Source: a bacterium (GTDB lineage: Bacteria > T1Sed10-126). Taken from it: 6,220 nt of DNA. The notes beneath the pieces are model-generated. The model did not search any database. It worked only from the letters and a program-made list of their open reading frames with translations, and was not told where the DNA came from. Positions 99-6,220 of this stretch are shown one piece after another; the first letter of the stretch is position 1; each line of letters opens with the position of its first letter. The DNA lies in the NCBI GenBank assembly GCA_003557545.1, contig PWOD01000089.1, positions 1-6,220 on the forward strand, given 5' to 3'. The position numbers and the translations under genes are program-made.

Positions 99-173
99 TG
101 TCCCCGAGGGGATTTGAACCCCTGTCTTCAGGATGAAAACCTGATGTCCTGGGCCGGGCTAGACGACGGGGAC
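99..173 (-). tRNA. tRNA-Glu (anticodon UUC)
   Basis: The minus strand folds into a complete cloverleaf of 75 bases. The acceptor arm pairs GTCCCCG with CGGGGAC over 7 bp. The D-stem pairs GTC with GAC. The anticodon stem TCAGG/CCTGA encloses the 7-base loop TTTTCAT, placing anticodon TTC at 135-137, which reads GAA and GAG. The T-arm is AGGGG-TTCAAAT-CCCCT. The variable region is short, the discriminator base is A (position 99), and no CCA is encoded. The overall sequence closely resembles known bacterial tRNA-Glu genes. It lies downstream of and co-oriented with the fbp operon, but has its own promoter. Confidence 0.96.
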
Positions 174-460: not shown

Positions 461-1498
461 TTAGCTGTCCTCCGACCAATCTCGATAAAGCTCTTCAACT
501 CGTCCTACCAGTTTCTTGCTGCCGGCAAACAGGGGTGTTTTGTCATGTAAATTTTCCGGCTGCTTATTAACTATTCGCTCAAATCCATCCGACCCGGCAC
601 CGCCGGCATTCTCAATAATAAAGGAAACGGGAGCAGCTTCATAAAGTAGCCGCAGTTTACCCTGCCGTTTGCCGGGAACATCTCTCTCAGCCGGATACAT
701 AAAAATCCCTCCGGCCAGCAGATTACGATGAAAATCCGCTACCATTGTTCCAATATAACGGGAGGAATATAGGCCAGACTCCCGAAACTCCTTTACCGCC
801 TGCTGGACCGGTTTATCCCAGTTAGAAAAATAACTCTCATTAAAACTTAAATATCCCTCATTCTCAGGGATTTTTATATTGGGGTAAGAGAGTAAAAATT
901 CGCCTATTGAATTGTCCAGGGTAAAACCGTACACATGCTGGCCGGTGGTATAGACCATTACAGTTGAAGCTCCATAAATAATATATCCGGCAGCGACCAG
1001 GTCACGGCCCGGCTGTAACAGATCAGCAAGATTGGCCGATTTTTCCGTGCCGGGGGATGAAATCTTTCGATAAATTCCAAAAATTGTCCCAATGCTGGCG
1101 TTATAATCAATGTTTGATGAACCATCCAGCGGATCAATCGTGATCACATATTTTCCCCGCAACTCAGGCTGCCGCACAGCAATCGGATCAGATTCCTCCT
1201 CACTCCCAATAATACAGATACCGCCATTATGAATTAACGCCCGGGTAAAAACAGCATTGGCATATAAATCTAGCCTGGCCTGGCGCTCACCATGAATATT
1301 TTCTTCCTTACTTTTTCCGAGAATATCTCCCAGCCCGGCCCGGTTGACCTCACGGGAAACAATCTTTCCGGCCAGAGCTATCTGTCCCAGTAACTGGCTG
1401 AATTCACCGGTCGCCTGGGGGTAGTCCCGCTGTGTAATGGCAATATGCCGCCGAAGATCTATCCCTTTTTTTATTTCGCGACTAACTGGATCGTTCAT
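461..1498 (-). CDS. fbp: Fructose-1,6-bisphosphatase, class I
   Basis: This cytosolic enzyme hydrolyses fructose 1,6-bisphosphate to fructose 6-phosphate and phosphate (EC 3.1.3.11), the committed step of gluconeogenesis. At 345 residues it has the usual length of class I enzymes. Visible signatures are the acidic metal-binding stretch SEEESDP (99-105), the core motif DPLDGSSNID (122-131), the substrate-binding segment RYIGTMVADFHR (247-258) with the GGIFMYP that follows, and GKLRLLYEAAP (280-290) carrying a further metal-ligand Glu. The C-terminus has the typical TPLFAGS. The ATG at 1498 is preceded by GGAGGT about 7 bases upstream, which supports this start. It is the first gene of an operon with DUF2905. 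Class I enzymes are less usual in Firmicutes, where class III (B. subtilis type) or class II forms are commonly described. No key residue appears to be missing. Confidence 0.95.
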   Translation of the reverse strand: MNDPVSREIKKGIDLRRHIAITQRDYPQATGEFSQLLGQIALAGKIVSREVNRAGLGDILGKSKEENIHGERQARLDLYANAVFTRALIHNGGICIIGSEEESDPIAVRQPELRGKYVITIDPLDGSSNIDYNASIGTIFGIYRKISSPGTEKSANLADLLQPGRDLVAAGYIIYGASTVMVYTTGQHVYGFTLDNSIGEFLLSYPNIKIPENEGYLSFNESYFSNWDKPVQQAVKEFRESGLYSSRYIGTMVADFHRNLLAGGIFMYPAERDVPGKRQGKLRLLYEAAPVSFIIENAGGAGSDGFERIVNKQPENLHDKTPLFAGSKKLVGRVEELYRDWSEDS

Positions 1499-2065: not shown

Positions 2066-2362
2066 ATGAAGGAATTAATCAATGAACCACAAGCTCTTCT
2101 GGATAAATCAACCAAATTCTGGTTGATGCAGCAGATCCGCTCCCAGTTAAAAAGAATGCGTCATGAACTTAACATGACCCAGGCCGATGTTGCCGAAAAA
2201 CTTGGTAAAGACCAGGTTTACATCTCCAACTGTGAATCAGGCCGGCGCCGGTTAGATCCTATTGAGTTCATGGCCTTTGCCTCGATTTATGGCACAACAA
2301 TCGATGAGATTCTCAGCAACCTCGATCTGGAAGAAGCAAAACGGCGTGATTACAGCTTCTAA
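2066..2362 (+). CDS. XRE-family helix-turn-helix transcriptional regulator
   Basis: This small cytosolic DNA-binding protein has 98 residues. An N-terminal extension of about 22 residues precedes a single Cro/C1-type HTH domain (about 24-83). Helix 1 is IRSQLKRMRHEL. The scaffold and recognition helices are in TQADVAEKLG (38-47) and QVYISNCESGRR (50-61), followed by the family-typical RLDPIEFMAFASIYG and TIDEIL. No sensor or enzymatic domain follows; the tail is short and charged. GTGAGGT lies some 8-10 bases before the ATG. The gene has its own sigma-A promoter and an intrinsic terminator, so it is a single-gene unit. No toxin gene adjoins it, which argues against an antitoxin role. Its target is unknown; self-regulation or control of the flanking genes is possible. 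Fold call is strong, function is open. Confidence 0.9.
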   Translation: MKELINEPQALLDKSTKFWLMQQIRSQLKRMRHELNMTQADVAEKLGKDQVYISNCESGRRRLDPIEFMAFASIYGTTIDEILSNLDLEEAKRRDYSF

Positions 2363-2604: not shown

Positions 2605-2612
2605 CGGTGGAA
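2605..2612 (+). promoter_or_regulatory. Ribosome binding site deciding the L,D-transpeptidase start
   Basis: GGTGG (2606-2610) lies 8 bases before the ATG at 2619 and is a reasonable Shine-Dalgarno match. The upstream in-frame GTG at 2607-2609 falls within this same motif and has no good site before it. The ATG also gives a cleaner signal peptide beginning MKKYL. No convincing promoter was found in 2449-2604, though TATAAC in the 2550s is a possible -10 without a good -35. Confidence 0.55.
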
Positions 2613-2618
2613 TTGAAA

Positions 2619-3164
2619 ATGAAAAAATATTTAATTATCGGACTGCTCATGGCAGTCAGCTTATTCTTCACTACAGGCAGAGTCCACGCCAATCTTGAAA
2701 GTTCGCCGGGGGCCACGATTACTCGAATCTACGTTGAGTTAGAAACCTTCCAGCTACTGGCTTTCTCCGGTGATCAGTTTGTCCGACGTTATCCGATCTC
2801 CACCGGTAAGGATAGCAGCCCCACACCAACTGGAGAGTTCACAATCATCAACAAGCTTAAAAACCCCTGGTATACACCGGCCAGCCGGCCAGCCAAGGCA
2901 CCCAGTGATCCGAACAACCCGATCGGAACAAGGTGGATGGGGATAGATAAACCAAGTTATGGAATCCATGGAACAATCGAACCGGAAAAAATCCAGATGC
3001 CGGCCTCCCGGGGCTGTATTAGAATGTTAAACGAAGATGTCGAAGAGCTTTATGAGATGGTACAGATCGGCACCCGGGTAATCGTCCAGGAACAGTTTGC
3101 CCCGGAGACCGTCATGCGGCTGGCCGGTTATCTCAAAGAGCTGGAGATTTCAGAAAGGAACTAA
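2619..3164 (+). CDS. Secreted L,D-transpeptidase (YkuD domain)
   Basis: L,D-transpeptidases form 3-3 cross-links in, or attach proteins to, peptidoglycan outside the cytoplasmic membrane, using a catalytic cysteine. This 181-residue protein starts with a signal peptide, basic MKK then a hydrophobic core, with likely cleavage after GRVHA. A YkuD domain follows: the early strand IYVELETFQLLAF, the PISTGKDSSPTPTGEF region, IHGT with the conserved His (117), and the active-site motif SRGCIRM with Cys133. The motif has Arg where many members have His, a variant known in the family. There is no LysM or peptidoglycan-binding module, so this is a minimal enzyme. The ATG at 2619 is preferred over an in-frame GTG at 2607 because of ribosome binding site spacing. 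Its stop codon overlaps that of the convergent propeller gene. Confidence 0.92.
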   Translation: MKKYLIIGLLMAVSLFFTTGRVHANLESSPGATITRIYVELETFQLLAFSGDQFVRRYPISTGKDSSPTPTGEFTIINKLKNPWYTPASRPAKAPSDPNNPIGTRWMGIDKPSYGIHGTIEPEKIQMPASRGCIRMLNEDVEELYEMVQIGTRVIVQEQFAPETVMRLAGYLKELEISERN

Positions 3165-5401
3165 TCATCCAGGAGATGTTTAACTATTCTCCTGTTCCCA
3201 CTGGCATCAATAACCATGATTTCCAGCAGTTCAACCGACTCGGTTTGATCGATCAGCAGTTCAAACTCCTCCAACCGTGAATCAAGCATACCATCGAGCG
3301 ACCGCAGGGTTTTCCAATCCCCACCATCCAGCCGGTAATAAACGGTTATTATCCGACTTGTCTGATCAACTGCTGTAAAACTAACCAGGCCGTTTTCATA
3401 GTTTAGATTTTCAACGCGGGGGGCACTATTATCAACCACAACCGGACCAATTGTCCGACTGACTACAAAACTTTCTCCCGGAGGATTGGACAGCTCATCC
3501 GAAACTCGCAGTTTTAACTGGTATCGACCATCGGCGAACTGCCGGGGATCCCAACGATCCTCCTTGCCATCGGCAAGCTGCCGCGGACCTGCCAGTTTTA
3601 TCCAGTTCTCGGCGGCCAGCGGACGGTAATATAATGACACAATAAGCTGGTCACCATCGGGGTCAACCGCCTCCCATCTGACTGTGCGCTGGCGTTCCTC
3701 GCCATCACCCACCAACCGGCGAAAAATCTCGGTAGGAGCAGCTTCTGAAGGACGTAAAATACGTTCTTCAGACAATCTTTTTGAATCATCAAAAATAATC
3801 TGCTGCCGGGGATCGGGGGAGATCTCAAACTCTACAATACGGGGGGACTGGTTGCTTGCCAGCCGGGCAATCTCAACCCGGTTCAGCTCAGCTTCCGGAC
3901 TCAGAAACTCCATCTCAAACTGTAAAAATCGTGCCGGTTTAGAAGTTATTTTGAAAAATCTTTTTTCCTCCCAGGCAGACCACTCGCTCCACTCCTCTCC
4001 CGGCTGATCGGTTAATCCTGATCGGGTACGAACTCTTACCGGACCCGAAACATAGCTGGCAAACTCTCCCCAGCGGGAGAGCAGTTGGGCATCAAATACC
4101 GGGGAGAGATAGCTGGCAGTTCCAACCTCGAACTTACTTACCCGGTAAACCACACCACCGTTGGCGGTGGTAAACCCCTGGAGTTTCCCGCCCGCTCCAT
4201 GCAGCGAAGTTACCTGCCGCTGGTCGGTTGAATAAAACACTGTTTTACGATGCTGCCGGTCGATCTTCACCAGACGCCCCTCGGCGCCACTTCCTAGATA
4301 AAGAGCGGTATCGGTCGCAAACAGATCAAATATTTCCAGACGCTCCGACTCCAGCAGCAACTGCATACCATCGGGGGGAGTAAACTTTACAACCAGCCCG
4401 CCGGTCCGTGCTTCAAACAGTTGATCGACCGTCTGTTCGCCGCGCTGCCGAACAGTCTCCCGAAATAGTTCATCAATCTGTTCCGCCTGTGGAGCTGGTG
4501 AATGATCAGTCAATTCCCCATCGTACTGGGCTGCTTGCTCGCCCACCGGCGCGCCGGCATCTCTCTGCCCCATCTGCCGTTCGATCATTTCACGGGTAAT
4601 TCGCTCAGACGAACCACGATTGCCCAGCTGACCGTTCCTCGGCTGAAACCTGTTTATTCCAAGATATAACGAGCCATTTTGAACAGCCATCGACCGGATC
4701 TCCCCCCGGGGGAAACCATAAACAGCTTCAATCGGTTCCTCCGGTTCAACCAGCGACTGTCGGTAAAGCATTCCCCGGGCGGTGCCGGCATAAAGATAAT
4801 CATCCAGTTCGACCAGACTCAAAACAATCTGATCCGATAACTCAGCCAGAAGCTGTGGTTCCTCGCCCGGCTCCAGATAATAGATCCTTCCCGGATCACC
4901 TGTACCCACAAATAGCCCTCGTTCCTGATTGTCAGGCAGCATGGCCAGAACAAACTCACCCTCCAGTTCCACCTGTTGACTAAAATCTTCCGCCTCATAA
5001 CCACTATATATTATTGCCCCCGGAGTAAACCCGGCATAGATTTTTTCAGAGACTGAAGCCAGGGCTGTAAAACCCATTCCCGGCCGGTCAATCACCTTCT
5101 GGGGGGTGGCACCATCATCTTTTGAGAGCCAGTACAGGGCAGCAGGCTGTGAACTACCAACCATCGTCCCGGCAATATTTTCAGCTCTATCCCAGACCAC
5201 TCTTGCCGGAATCGTATCCTTTTCCGTGCTGATTGACGGTTTAACAACCCCCTCGGAGCTGAGACCGGTTCCACTGAATCGCCCCTGCTGGAACCCCTCA
5301 AACGAATCCAGTTCCCAGAACCTTGTAGACGCACCATGGACCGGTGATAACAAACTAACCAGGATTAATATCATGCACAGATTAATTAGAATTTTTTTCA
5401 T
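3161..5401 (-). CDS. Exported beta-propeller / Ig-like multidomain protein, partner of an S55-like protein
   Basis: This 746-residue protein of unknown function carries a signal peptide (about 1-24: MKK, hydrophobic core, VHGA) and should act outside the cytoplasmic membrane. Next comes a short motif, GRFSGTGLSSEGVVKPS (40-56), typical of the start of these proteins. Repeated propeller-blade strands follow: YAGFTPGAIIYSG (122-134), FVGTGDPGRIYYL (164-176), YAGTARGMLYR (204-214), YLGSGAEGRLVKID (368-381) and TANGGVVYRVS (412-422). A polar, Gln/Glu-rich insertion (about 251-333) interrupts the propeller. Residues 430-515 look like a jelly-roll-type sandwich (WSEWSAW, ARFLQFEMEF), then come Ig/fibronectin-like domains (about 573-655 and 660-746; WEAVDPDGDQ, DASGN). 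The ATG at 5401 has a strong GGGAGGT site 4 bases upstream. It begins 19 bases after the S55-like gene, so the two form an operon. No catalytic motif is seen; a binding or scaffold role is inferred. Confidence 0.75.
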   Translation of the reverse strand: MKKILINLCMILILVSLLSPVHGASTRFWELDSFEGFQQGRFSGTGLSSEGVVKPSISTEKDTIPARVVWDRAENIAGTMVGSSQPAALYWLSKDDGATPQKVIDRPGMGFTALASVSEKIYAGFTPGAIIYSGYEAEDFSQQVELEGEFVLAMLPDNQERGLFVGTGDPGRIYYLEPGEEPQLLAELSDQIVLSLVELDDYLYAGTARGMLYRQSLVEPEEPIEAVYGFPRGEIRSMAVQNGSLYLGINRFQPRNGQLGNRGSSERITREMIERQMGQRDAGAPVGEQAAQYDGELTDHSPAPQAEQIDELFRETVRQRGEQTVDQLFEARTGGLVVKFTPPDGMQLLLESERLEIFDLFATDTALYLGSGAEGRLVKIDRQHRKTVFYSTDQRQVTSLHGAGGKLQGFTTANGGVVYRVSKFEVGTASYLSPVFDAQLLSRWGEFASYVSGPVRVRTRSGLTDQPGEEWSEWSAWEEKRFFKITSKPARFLQFEMEFLSPEAELNRVEIARLASNQSPRIVEFEISPDPRQQIIFDDSKRLSEERILRPSEAAPTEIFRRLVGDGEERQRTVRWEAVDPDGDQLIVSLYYRPLAAENWIKLAGPRQLADGKEDRWDPRQFADGRYQLKLRVSDELSNPPGESFVVSRTIGPVVVDNSAPRVENLNYENGLVSFTAVDQTSRIITVYYRLDGGDWKTLRSLDGMLDSRLEEFELLIDQTESVELLEIMVIDASGNRRIVKHLLDD

Positions 5402-5420
5402 CAGTACCTCCCAAAAAATA

Positions 5421-6220
5421 TCAGTTTAGCCGGACTGGCAGCCGCACCGACCGCCGACCGGTCAACATATAATCAACGTCGCGCTGTTTTCTGCTAATAT
5501 CTGGTTTGGTGATTATTCCACCGGACGAATCAGTTAAAATAGTATTTAACATAGTCCAGGGGGTCCCCGAAATCTGCTGTCCATCCATCTGCAGCACAAC
5601 CTCCGGCGTTACCAGGGCTATCGCCAGCTGATTGGCTCGTTGCTGCTGGTTAAGATTTCTAATTAAATCTTCCAACGAGCGGGGGGCAGGTTTTTCGCCC
5701 GCAAACCGTTCGGCCGGCACTGCAATTATCTCGATTTCCCCGCCTTCCAGTCCCTCCGGCAGCCGGAGATTAAACGTTTCAATAAACGGTTCCGCACGAT
5801 AGGGATCAAGTTCAACATAAACCGTCAACTTCTCCCCCGGTCGGGCCACCGACGGTTGACTCCAGACTCTATTGATCACAGCCCGGTTATCGCCGGGATG
5901 GAGCGTGATATCAACCTTTACCCCACTGATTTCCGGGGTTTCAAAAGGATTATTCCAGATACTGTCCAACGGAAAGATCGCCCGTGGATCGTAGGAACTA
6001 ACCGCCGAATGGACTCTTTCCATTGTTAAATCAGGCTGACCCTCCAGCTCGATCCGCAACCTGGTTTCCACCAGGTTAACCCCTGAACGGGCAAGCTGCG
6101 TGATGGCAAATTCGGCCACCACAAGATTCAATAACGACGGCGATAGATACTGATTTTTAACAACTTCCACCTGGTAGTTCTCGTCAAAACCCTCCTCGGT
6201 GCTGATCAAACTTAGCTCCA
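5421..6220 (-). CDS. SpoIVB peptidase S55-like protein, C-terminal part (partial)
   Basis: The reading frame stays open to the window edge, so this is the last 265 or so residues of a longer protein whose start lies beyond 6220. The visible part resembles the C-terminal half of large secreted proteins of the SpoIVB peptidase S55 family, as I remember them from Acidobacteria and other phyla. Matching landmarks are a YQVEVV...LSPSLLNLVVAEFAI segment, WNNPFETPEISGVKVDI, the basic-hydrophobic stretch RVWSQPSVARPGEKLTVYVELDPYR, and RSLEDLIRNLNQQQRANQL. The peptidase domain itself, expected toward the N-terminus, is not in view, so catalytic residues cannot be checked. A TTG at 6209-6207 could be taken as a start, but the frame continues upstream (ELSL...), so it is unlikely to be one. 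Stop TGA lies 19 bases before the propeller gene, with which it forms an operon. Family membership is probable, not proven. Confidence 0.7.
   Translation of the reverse strand, partial: ELSLISTEEGFDENYQVEVVKNQYLSPSLLNLVVAEFAITQLARSGVNLVETRLRIELEGQPDLTMERVHSAVSSYDPRAIFPLDSIWNNPFETPEISGVKVDITLHPGDNRAVINRVWSQPSVARPGEKLTVYVELDPYRAEPFIETFNLRLPEGLEGGEIEIIAVPAERFAGEKPAPRSLEDLIRNLNQQQRANQLAIALVTPEVVLQMDGQQISGTPWTMLNTILTDSSGGIITKPDISRKQRDVDYMLTGRRSVRLPVRLN

Follow-up and report, generated by a model that had tools for sequence, protein, structure and literature searches.

Among described proteases, the closest relative of the proteins considered here is SpoIVB of family S55 (PF05580, TIGR02860; PDB 9lnf). 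Its crystal structure has no canonical catalytic triad: Asp363 lies ~24 Å from His236, and the third catalytic residue was left unsettled, with Thr393 suggested (PMC12502668). A second described protein is Vpar_0521 of Veillonella parvula, which has an N-terminal SpoIVB domain. It is described as conserved among diderm Firmicutes, and all three outer-membrane extractions of the V. parvula proteome contained it, along with the DUF2233 (NAGPA-type) protein Vpar_0519 (PMC5491611). Vpar_0521 is probably among the unassigned proteins of the outer-membrane cluster described by Antunes 2016 (PMC5007114). It is very probably a member of the family we call A, as judged by its description and synteny rather than by its sequence. 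That a Firmicute member exists, is conserved and was detected in outer-membrane fractions has already been published. A literature search found no account of a permuted S55 protein, of a role for Asn290 of SpoIVB, of a spread across phyla, or of an A-B pair with a propeller partner.

The gene pair in the window and the architecture of B

The window analysed here is a stretch of 6,220 nucleotides that forms an entire contig (G000:C142) from a 2.15 Mb bacterial bin. It contains two minus-strand genes, A and B, whose spacing and coordinates agree with the initial annotation (Table 1). B is preceded by a GGGAGG ribosome-binding site immediately 5' of its ATG. Gene A is cut by the contig end, so its S55 domain was tested in relatives; a search of the rest of the assembly for the missing N-terminal ~300 residues did not find them. 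A Pfam scan of the A fragment and of B from the window gave no significant match, and the S55 label of A therefore rests on relatives. The closest homologue of the fragment is found in G001, the only other genome of the same family, where a complete A of 555 aa is followed by B. The window fragment shares 44% identity with residues 301-554 of this protein, which matches PF05580 at 28.2 bits (cut-off 25). A YkuD gene converges on B in the window, and G001 likewise has a YkuD gene ~3 kb away from B (L041:12930-13496), although no recurrent YkuD neighbour was seen elsewhere. The other genes of the window are ordinary.

Table 1. Features of the window, with positions counted from its first letter.
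Feature	Position	Strand	Remarks
tRNA	99-173	-	
Class 1 fructose-bisphosphatase	461-1498	-	
Small HTH_3 regulator	2066-2362	+	
YkuD L,D-transpeptidase	2607-3164	+	Convergent with B; stop codons overlap by 4 bases
Gene B	3161-5401	-	746 aa; exported, propeller / WSxWS / Ig-like (predicted)
B Ig-like domain 2	3170-3418	-	Residues 662-744; weak OmpL47-type NCBIfam match
B Ig-like domain 1	3434-3688	-	Residues 572-656; model strands, Pfam matches in relatives
B WSxWS domain	3857-4126	-	Residues 426-515; conserved, without Pfam family
B seven-bladed beta-propeller	4127-5239	-	Residues 55-425; predicted structure and structural matches
Low-confidence insert in B propeller	4397-4654		Residues ~250-335
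B signal peptide	5330-5401	-	Residues ~1-24; hydrophobic N-terminus in sequence, helix 2-18 in model
Gap between A and B	5402-5420	-	19 bases; ribosome-binding site for B
Gene A, 3' part	5421-6218	-	265 aa; last 265 codons and stop, cut by contig end at 6220; part after the permuted S55 region, macroglobulin/Ig-like end domain

From its N-terminus, B is predicted to have a signal peptide followed by a seven-bladed propeller, then the conserved WSxWS domain and a pair of Ig-like domains. In its AlphaFold model (pLDDT 85.7), residues 55-425 match seven-bladed propellers with Z ~31 and an rmsd of 2.5 over 278 residues, which bears out the exported propeller protein proposed at the outset. The two C-terminal Ig-like domains, also part of that proposal, are visible as strands in the model and as weak Big/Ig Pfam matches in relatives. 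PQQ_2 was seen in one B homologue at 14.7 bits, against a cut-off of 27.6, and was absent from the B protein of the window. The segment EWSEWSAW lies inside a conserved domain marked by the motifs WSxWS and RF-Q, for which Pfam and PDB profile searches returned no consistent family and no identity. Matches to this domain were also seen within other open frames of very large size that lack a propeller (G072:C69 and G094:C26), and so it looks like a mobile extracellular domain without a Pfam entry.

Order of the two halves of A and its candidate catalytic residues

PF05580 matches occur in 55 of 241 genomes. One covers SpoIVB at full length, and the other 54 cover the second half of the profile only (~104-210). 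Matches above the gathering score are found in 47 genomes, or 46 without the genome of the canonical SpoIVB (G052). The match sits near the N-terminus of the A proteins, which are usually 540-800 aa long. The profile itself has its His block early and its GMSGSP block late. Full-length A homologues have the opposite order to SpoIVB, with the half containing GMSGSP (the nucleophile) first and the half containing GHP (the histidine) second. Two motifs of the second half, 'GD-s--A-GTvT---gd--lAFGHPf' and 'G-i-QDR--Gi-G-lG--P-mIPv', align with 'RDSAAGiGTmTFY---YGALGH236' and 'iGdInrN290--GIFG---ALPVA' of SpoIVB.

The His half of A was also compared with SpoIVB separately from the Ser half. Scanned against 24,736 Pfam families, it recovered PF05580 in 11 of 68 members, with the next families reaching 2; the best PF05580 match (E 0.0087, profile positions 15-80) falls below the curated cut-off. 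An HMM of the His half located the correct site in a set of 30 SpoIVBs (best E 3.5e-5), the SpoIVB HMM matched one A protein, L201, in swapped order, and sliding windows along A map to SpoIVB in rotated order. When A was re-ordered as SpoIVB, the profile score rose from 123 to 137 and the alignment grew from 85 to 177 columns, against a maximum score of 133 among 200 shuffles of the His half; when the test was confined to Firmicute sequences, the re-ordered profile failed to exceed the best shuffle. For the His half alone the pairwise profile P value comes to 0.0024; of 200 column shuffles, 3 scored as well. When the His half was searched against the PDB, 9lnf was not recovered, and citrate synthase and other unrelated chains ranked highest. 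TIGR02860 scores for A are 26-51 bits, far from the equivalog cut-off of 305. Overall, both halves of A are homologous to SpoIVB and stand in permuted order, and the case for A as a circularly permuted relative of S55 is strong as a claim about fold. Derivation of SpoIVB from the Firmicute A proteins was considered and rejected; a tree of the Ser half gives SpoIVB its own long branch, and either order may be the ancestral one.

A model of a Poribacteria A protein (pLDDT 90) superposes at residues 29-141 on SpoIVB 313-426 and on the C-terminal barrels of HtrA. Foldseek found no significant match for the whole model, VIA listed mainly matches to the Ser barrel, and residues 429-594 matched complement C3 in VIA with a Z of only 5.5. 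Among 134 sequences, no exception to Ser94, His256 and Asp299 (L092 numbering) was seen. The S55 domain, in permuted form, and the catalytic residues were thus both present when sought in relatives. A probably uses these three residues as a Ser-His-Asp triad, in which case the two halves would join into one active site. Asp299 aligns with an Asn that is invariant in 30 SpoIVBs; counted from His236 in the 9lnf sequence, this residue is Asn290. At the position of SpoIVB Thr393, A proteins mostly have Ala, Gly or Ser. From this alignment we offer Asn290 as an alternative candidate for the third catalytic residue of SpoIVB. The initial annotation had left a choice between a regulated protease and a PDZ-type scaffold. 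Pfam scans of the full-length A homologues tested found no PDZ domain, and the invariant catalytic residues make an active protease the more likely of the two.

Spread of the pair and its link to the outer membrane

An early search for related loci with the B protein of the window as query gave no match. Profiles built for each protein identified A in 57 member genomes (plus one canonical SpoIVB) and B in 46 genomes with convincing full-length members, as judged from the match list, among the 241 genomes. A is present in all 46 genomes with B (Fisher p 3e-39), although the genomes, mostly one per family, are still related, so that Fisher values for this set overstate independence. The two genes are adjacent on the same strand with A first in 39 of the 46. 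A scan of GTDB contigs returned at least 578 relatives, and of the 80 loci kept, 66 have B directly downstream; of the remaining 14, roughly half are truncated by a contig end. The named groups among these loci are Zixibacteria, Planctomycetota (Brocadia, Kuenenia, Scalindua), Poribacteria, Acidobacteriota, Latescibacterota, Gemmatimonadota, Aminicenantes and WOR-3, and A is found in at least 7 named phyla. The earlier suggestion that the pair is conserved far from sporulating Firmicutes, with the two genes as neighbours in other genomes, is upheld by these counts, and its mention of similar pairs in Acidobacteria is matched by record titles.

Several loci depart from this pattern. Two or more A paralogues occur in G039, G120, G184 and G218, and G184 has two A genes in tandem on contig C32. 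A occurs without B in the flank at L132, L147 and L151 (Pyrinomonadaceae) and at L139 and L148 (Acidobacteriaceae/Terriglobia), which suggests that B was lost or relocated in some Acidobacteria. Three contigs labelled Acidimicrobiia or Bifidobacterium breve (L145, L152, L164) encode A proteins that fall inside an Acidobacteria group of the tree, and these Actinomycetota names probably reflect mislabelled bins.

We compared A with outer-membrane genes in the 61 genomes that share a phylum with the canonical SpoIVB carrier, a phylum we infer to be Bacillota from the SpoIVB and SpoIIID genes of that carrier. Full A is present in 12 of the 61. Omp85 is found in all 12 of these, compared with 1 of the 49 genomes without A (p 7e-12); put the other way, A is present in 12 of 13 genomes with Omp85 and in 0 of 48 others. 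Omp85 lies within 10 kb of A in 9 of the 12 genomes. The neighbours of Firmicute A genes encode FlgH, FlgI, FlgJ, an AMIN/NAGPA protein, TamB/AsmA-like proteins and Omp85, and several genomes have A in a cluster in the order flgHIJ, NAGPA, A, TamB-like, BamA. These neighbours match the outer-membrane locus of diderm Firmicutes (PMC5007114). In the wider set, Omp85 is present in all 57 A genomes, and A is present in 57 of 226 Omp85 genomes, or a quarter. B was absent from the Firmicute-phylum A loci examined and from 11 further A genomes (of the 57), which indicates that A can work without B.

Proposed role of A and B and comparison with known systems

We consider it fairly probable that A is a serine protease of the diderm envelope, tied to outer-membrane assembly or surveillance, built as a permuted S55 protein without a PDZ domain, and served by B as a recognition partner. 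A would be an exported protease of the PA (chymotrypsin-like) fold, with a chain that runs from the Ser-bearing barrel through a linker joining the old termini to the His-bearing barrel and a C-terminal macroglobulin/Ig-like region. Its most likely task would be to cleave or clear clients in the envelope, as part of outer-membrane assembly or quality control. In diderms other than Firmicutes, where A is usually encoded beside the secreted propeller/WSxWS/Ig protein, A and B may be co-expressed and form a complex, and B would most likely bind A or present its clients, which is the job of the PDZ domain in other envelope proteases. With somewhat less confidence, we lean towards a wider view of the family. 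It may be an ancient outer-membrane-linked protease family of diderms, founded when a serine protease of the chymotrypsin fold underwent circular permutation in nature, and now spread over many phyla, where its members usually operate together with a propeller protein as a machine of two proteins. SpoIVB and the A family would then be alternative permutants, and Asn290 would be the missing triad acid of SpoIVB, the counterpart of the invariant Asp of A.

Four other readings were weighed. One is that A acts on B, as a client or even as its main substrate; B might, for instance, be displayed on the surface after maturation by A. The A-then-B gene order and the presence of A without B in some phyla would fit this reading too, but B never occurs without A in the 241 genomes, while a protein that was no more than a substrate should sometimes be processed by other enzymes, and we regard this reading as unlikely. 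Also unlikely, and ranked next, is that A is a non-proteolytic relative that uses the S55 fold as a binding module within a structural A-B envelope complex. Proteolysis by A is a prediction, the repeats of B suggest binding, and SpoIVB itself crystallized without a canonical triad (PMC12502668); against this, a degenerate enzyme would not be expected to keep Ser, His and Asp in every one of 134 diverse sequences. We give less weight again to A as a site-1 type signalling protease like SpoIVB or DegS, switched on by B as a ligand sensor to release a membrane-bound regulator. SpoIVB does activate pro-sigma-K processing (PMC12502668), and the propeller and Ig layout of B resembles sensor ectodomains such as BT4663, a Foldseek match. 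However, neighbours beyond A and B are lineage-specific, with no site-2 protease, anti-sigma factor or sensor kinase conserved beside the pair across phyla, and the Firmicute neighbours are outer-membrane assembly genes. Least credible is that A has the S55 Ser half only, followed by an unrelated domain with a coincidental GHP, a reading that would explain why Foldseek and VIA see mainly the Ser barrel and why the His half alone scores modestly, but which we judge improbable given that this second block recovers PF05580 most often of all Pfam families, that windows of A map to SpoIVB in rotated order, and that the GT-T, GH and G-I-G motifs follow one another as they do in SpoIVB.

On the preferred reading of A as an envelope protease, a quarter of the sampled genomes with Omp85 encode an unstudied predicted enzyme, whose link is to TamB/BamA in diderm Firmicutes and, in other groups, to a propeller. 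A candidate member has already been detected in a tractable laboratory organism. The family gives a natural example of a classic protease fold with its order swapped, and makes Asn290 a testable candidate for the catalytic residue left open by the 2025 crystal-structure paper (PMC12502668).

SpoIVB and A share homologous halves, with a GMSG(S/A)P nucleophile motif, a GT-T...GH histidine block and a G-I--(D/N)...GI-G block in common. They differ in that A has the halves in reverse order, no detected PDZ domain and Asp in place of Asn290, is found with outer membranes rather than sporulation, and scores far under the TIGR02860 cut-off. Vpar_0521 is close to A as a SpoIVB-domain protein of diderm Firmicutes that was detected in outer-membrane fractions and has the DUF2233 protein Vpar_0519 nearby; the available text of PMC5491611 mentions no permutation, wide spread or propeller partner. 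The HtrA proteases (DegP/DegQ/DegS) have a chymotrypsin-like C-barrel that matches residues 29-140 of the A model and an analogous envelope protease role, but their order is His-Asp-Ser followed by PDZ, whereas A has its Ser half before its His half, no PDZ and no significant sequence match to them. B is likewise comparable to BamB and other periplasmic propellers, since Foldseek finds BamB and one B homologue has a weak PQQ_2 match, but its scores place it outside the PQQ/BamB family, and it has WSxWS and Ig-like domains in addition to its propeller.
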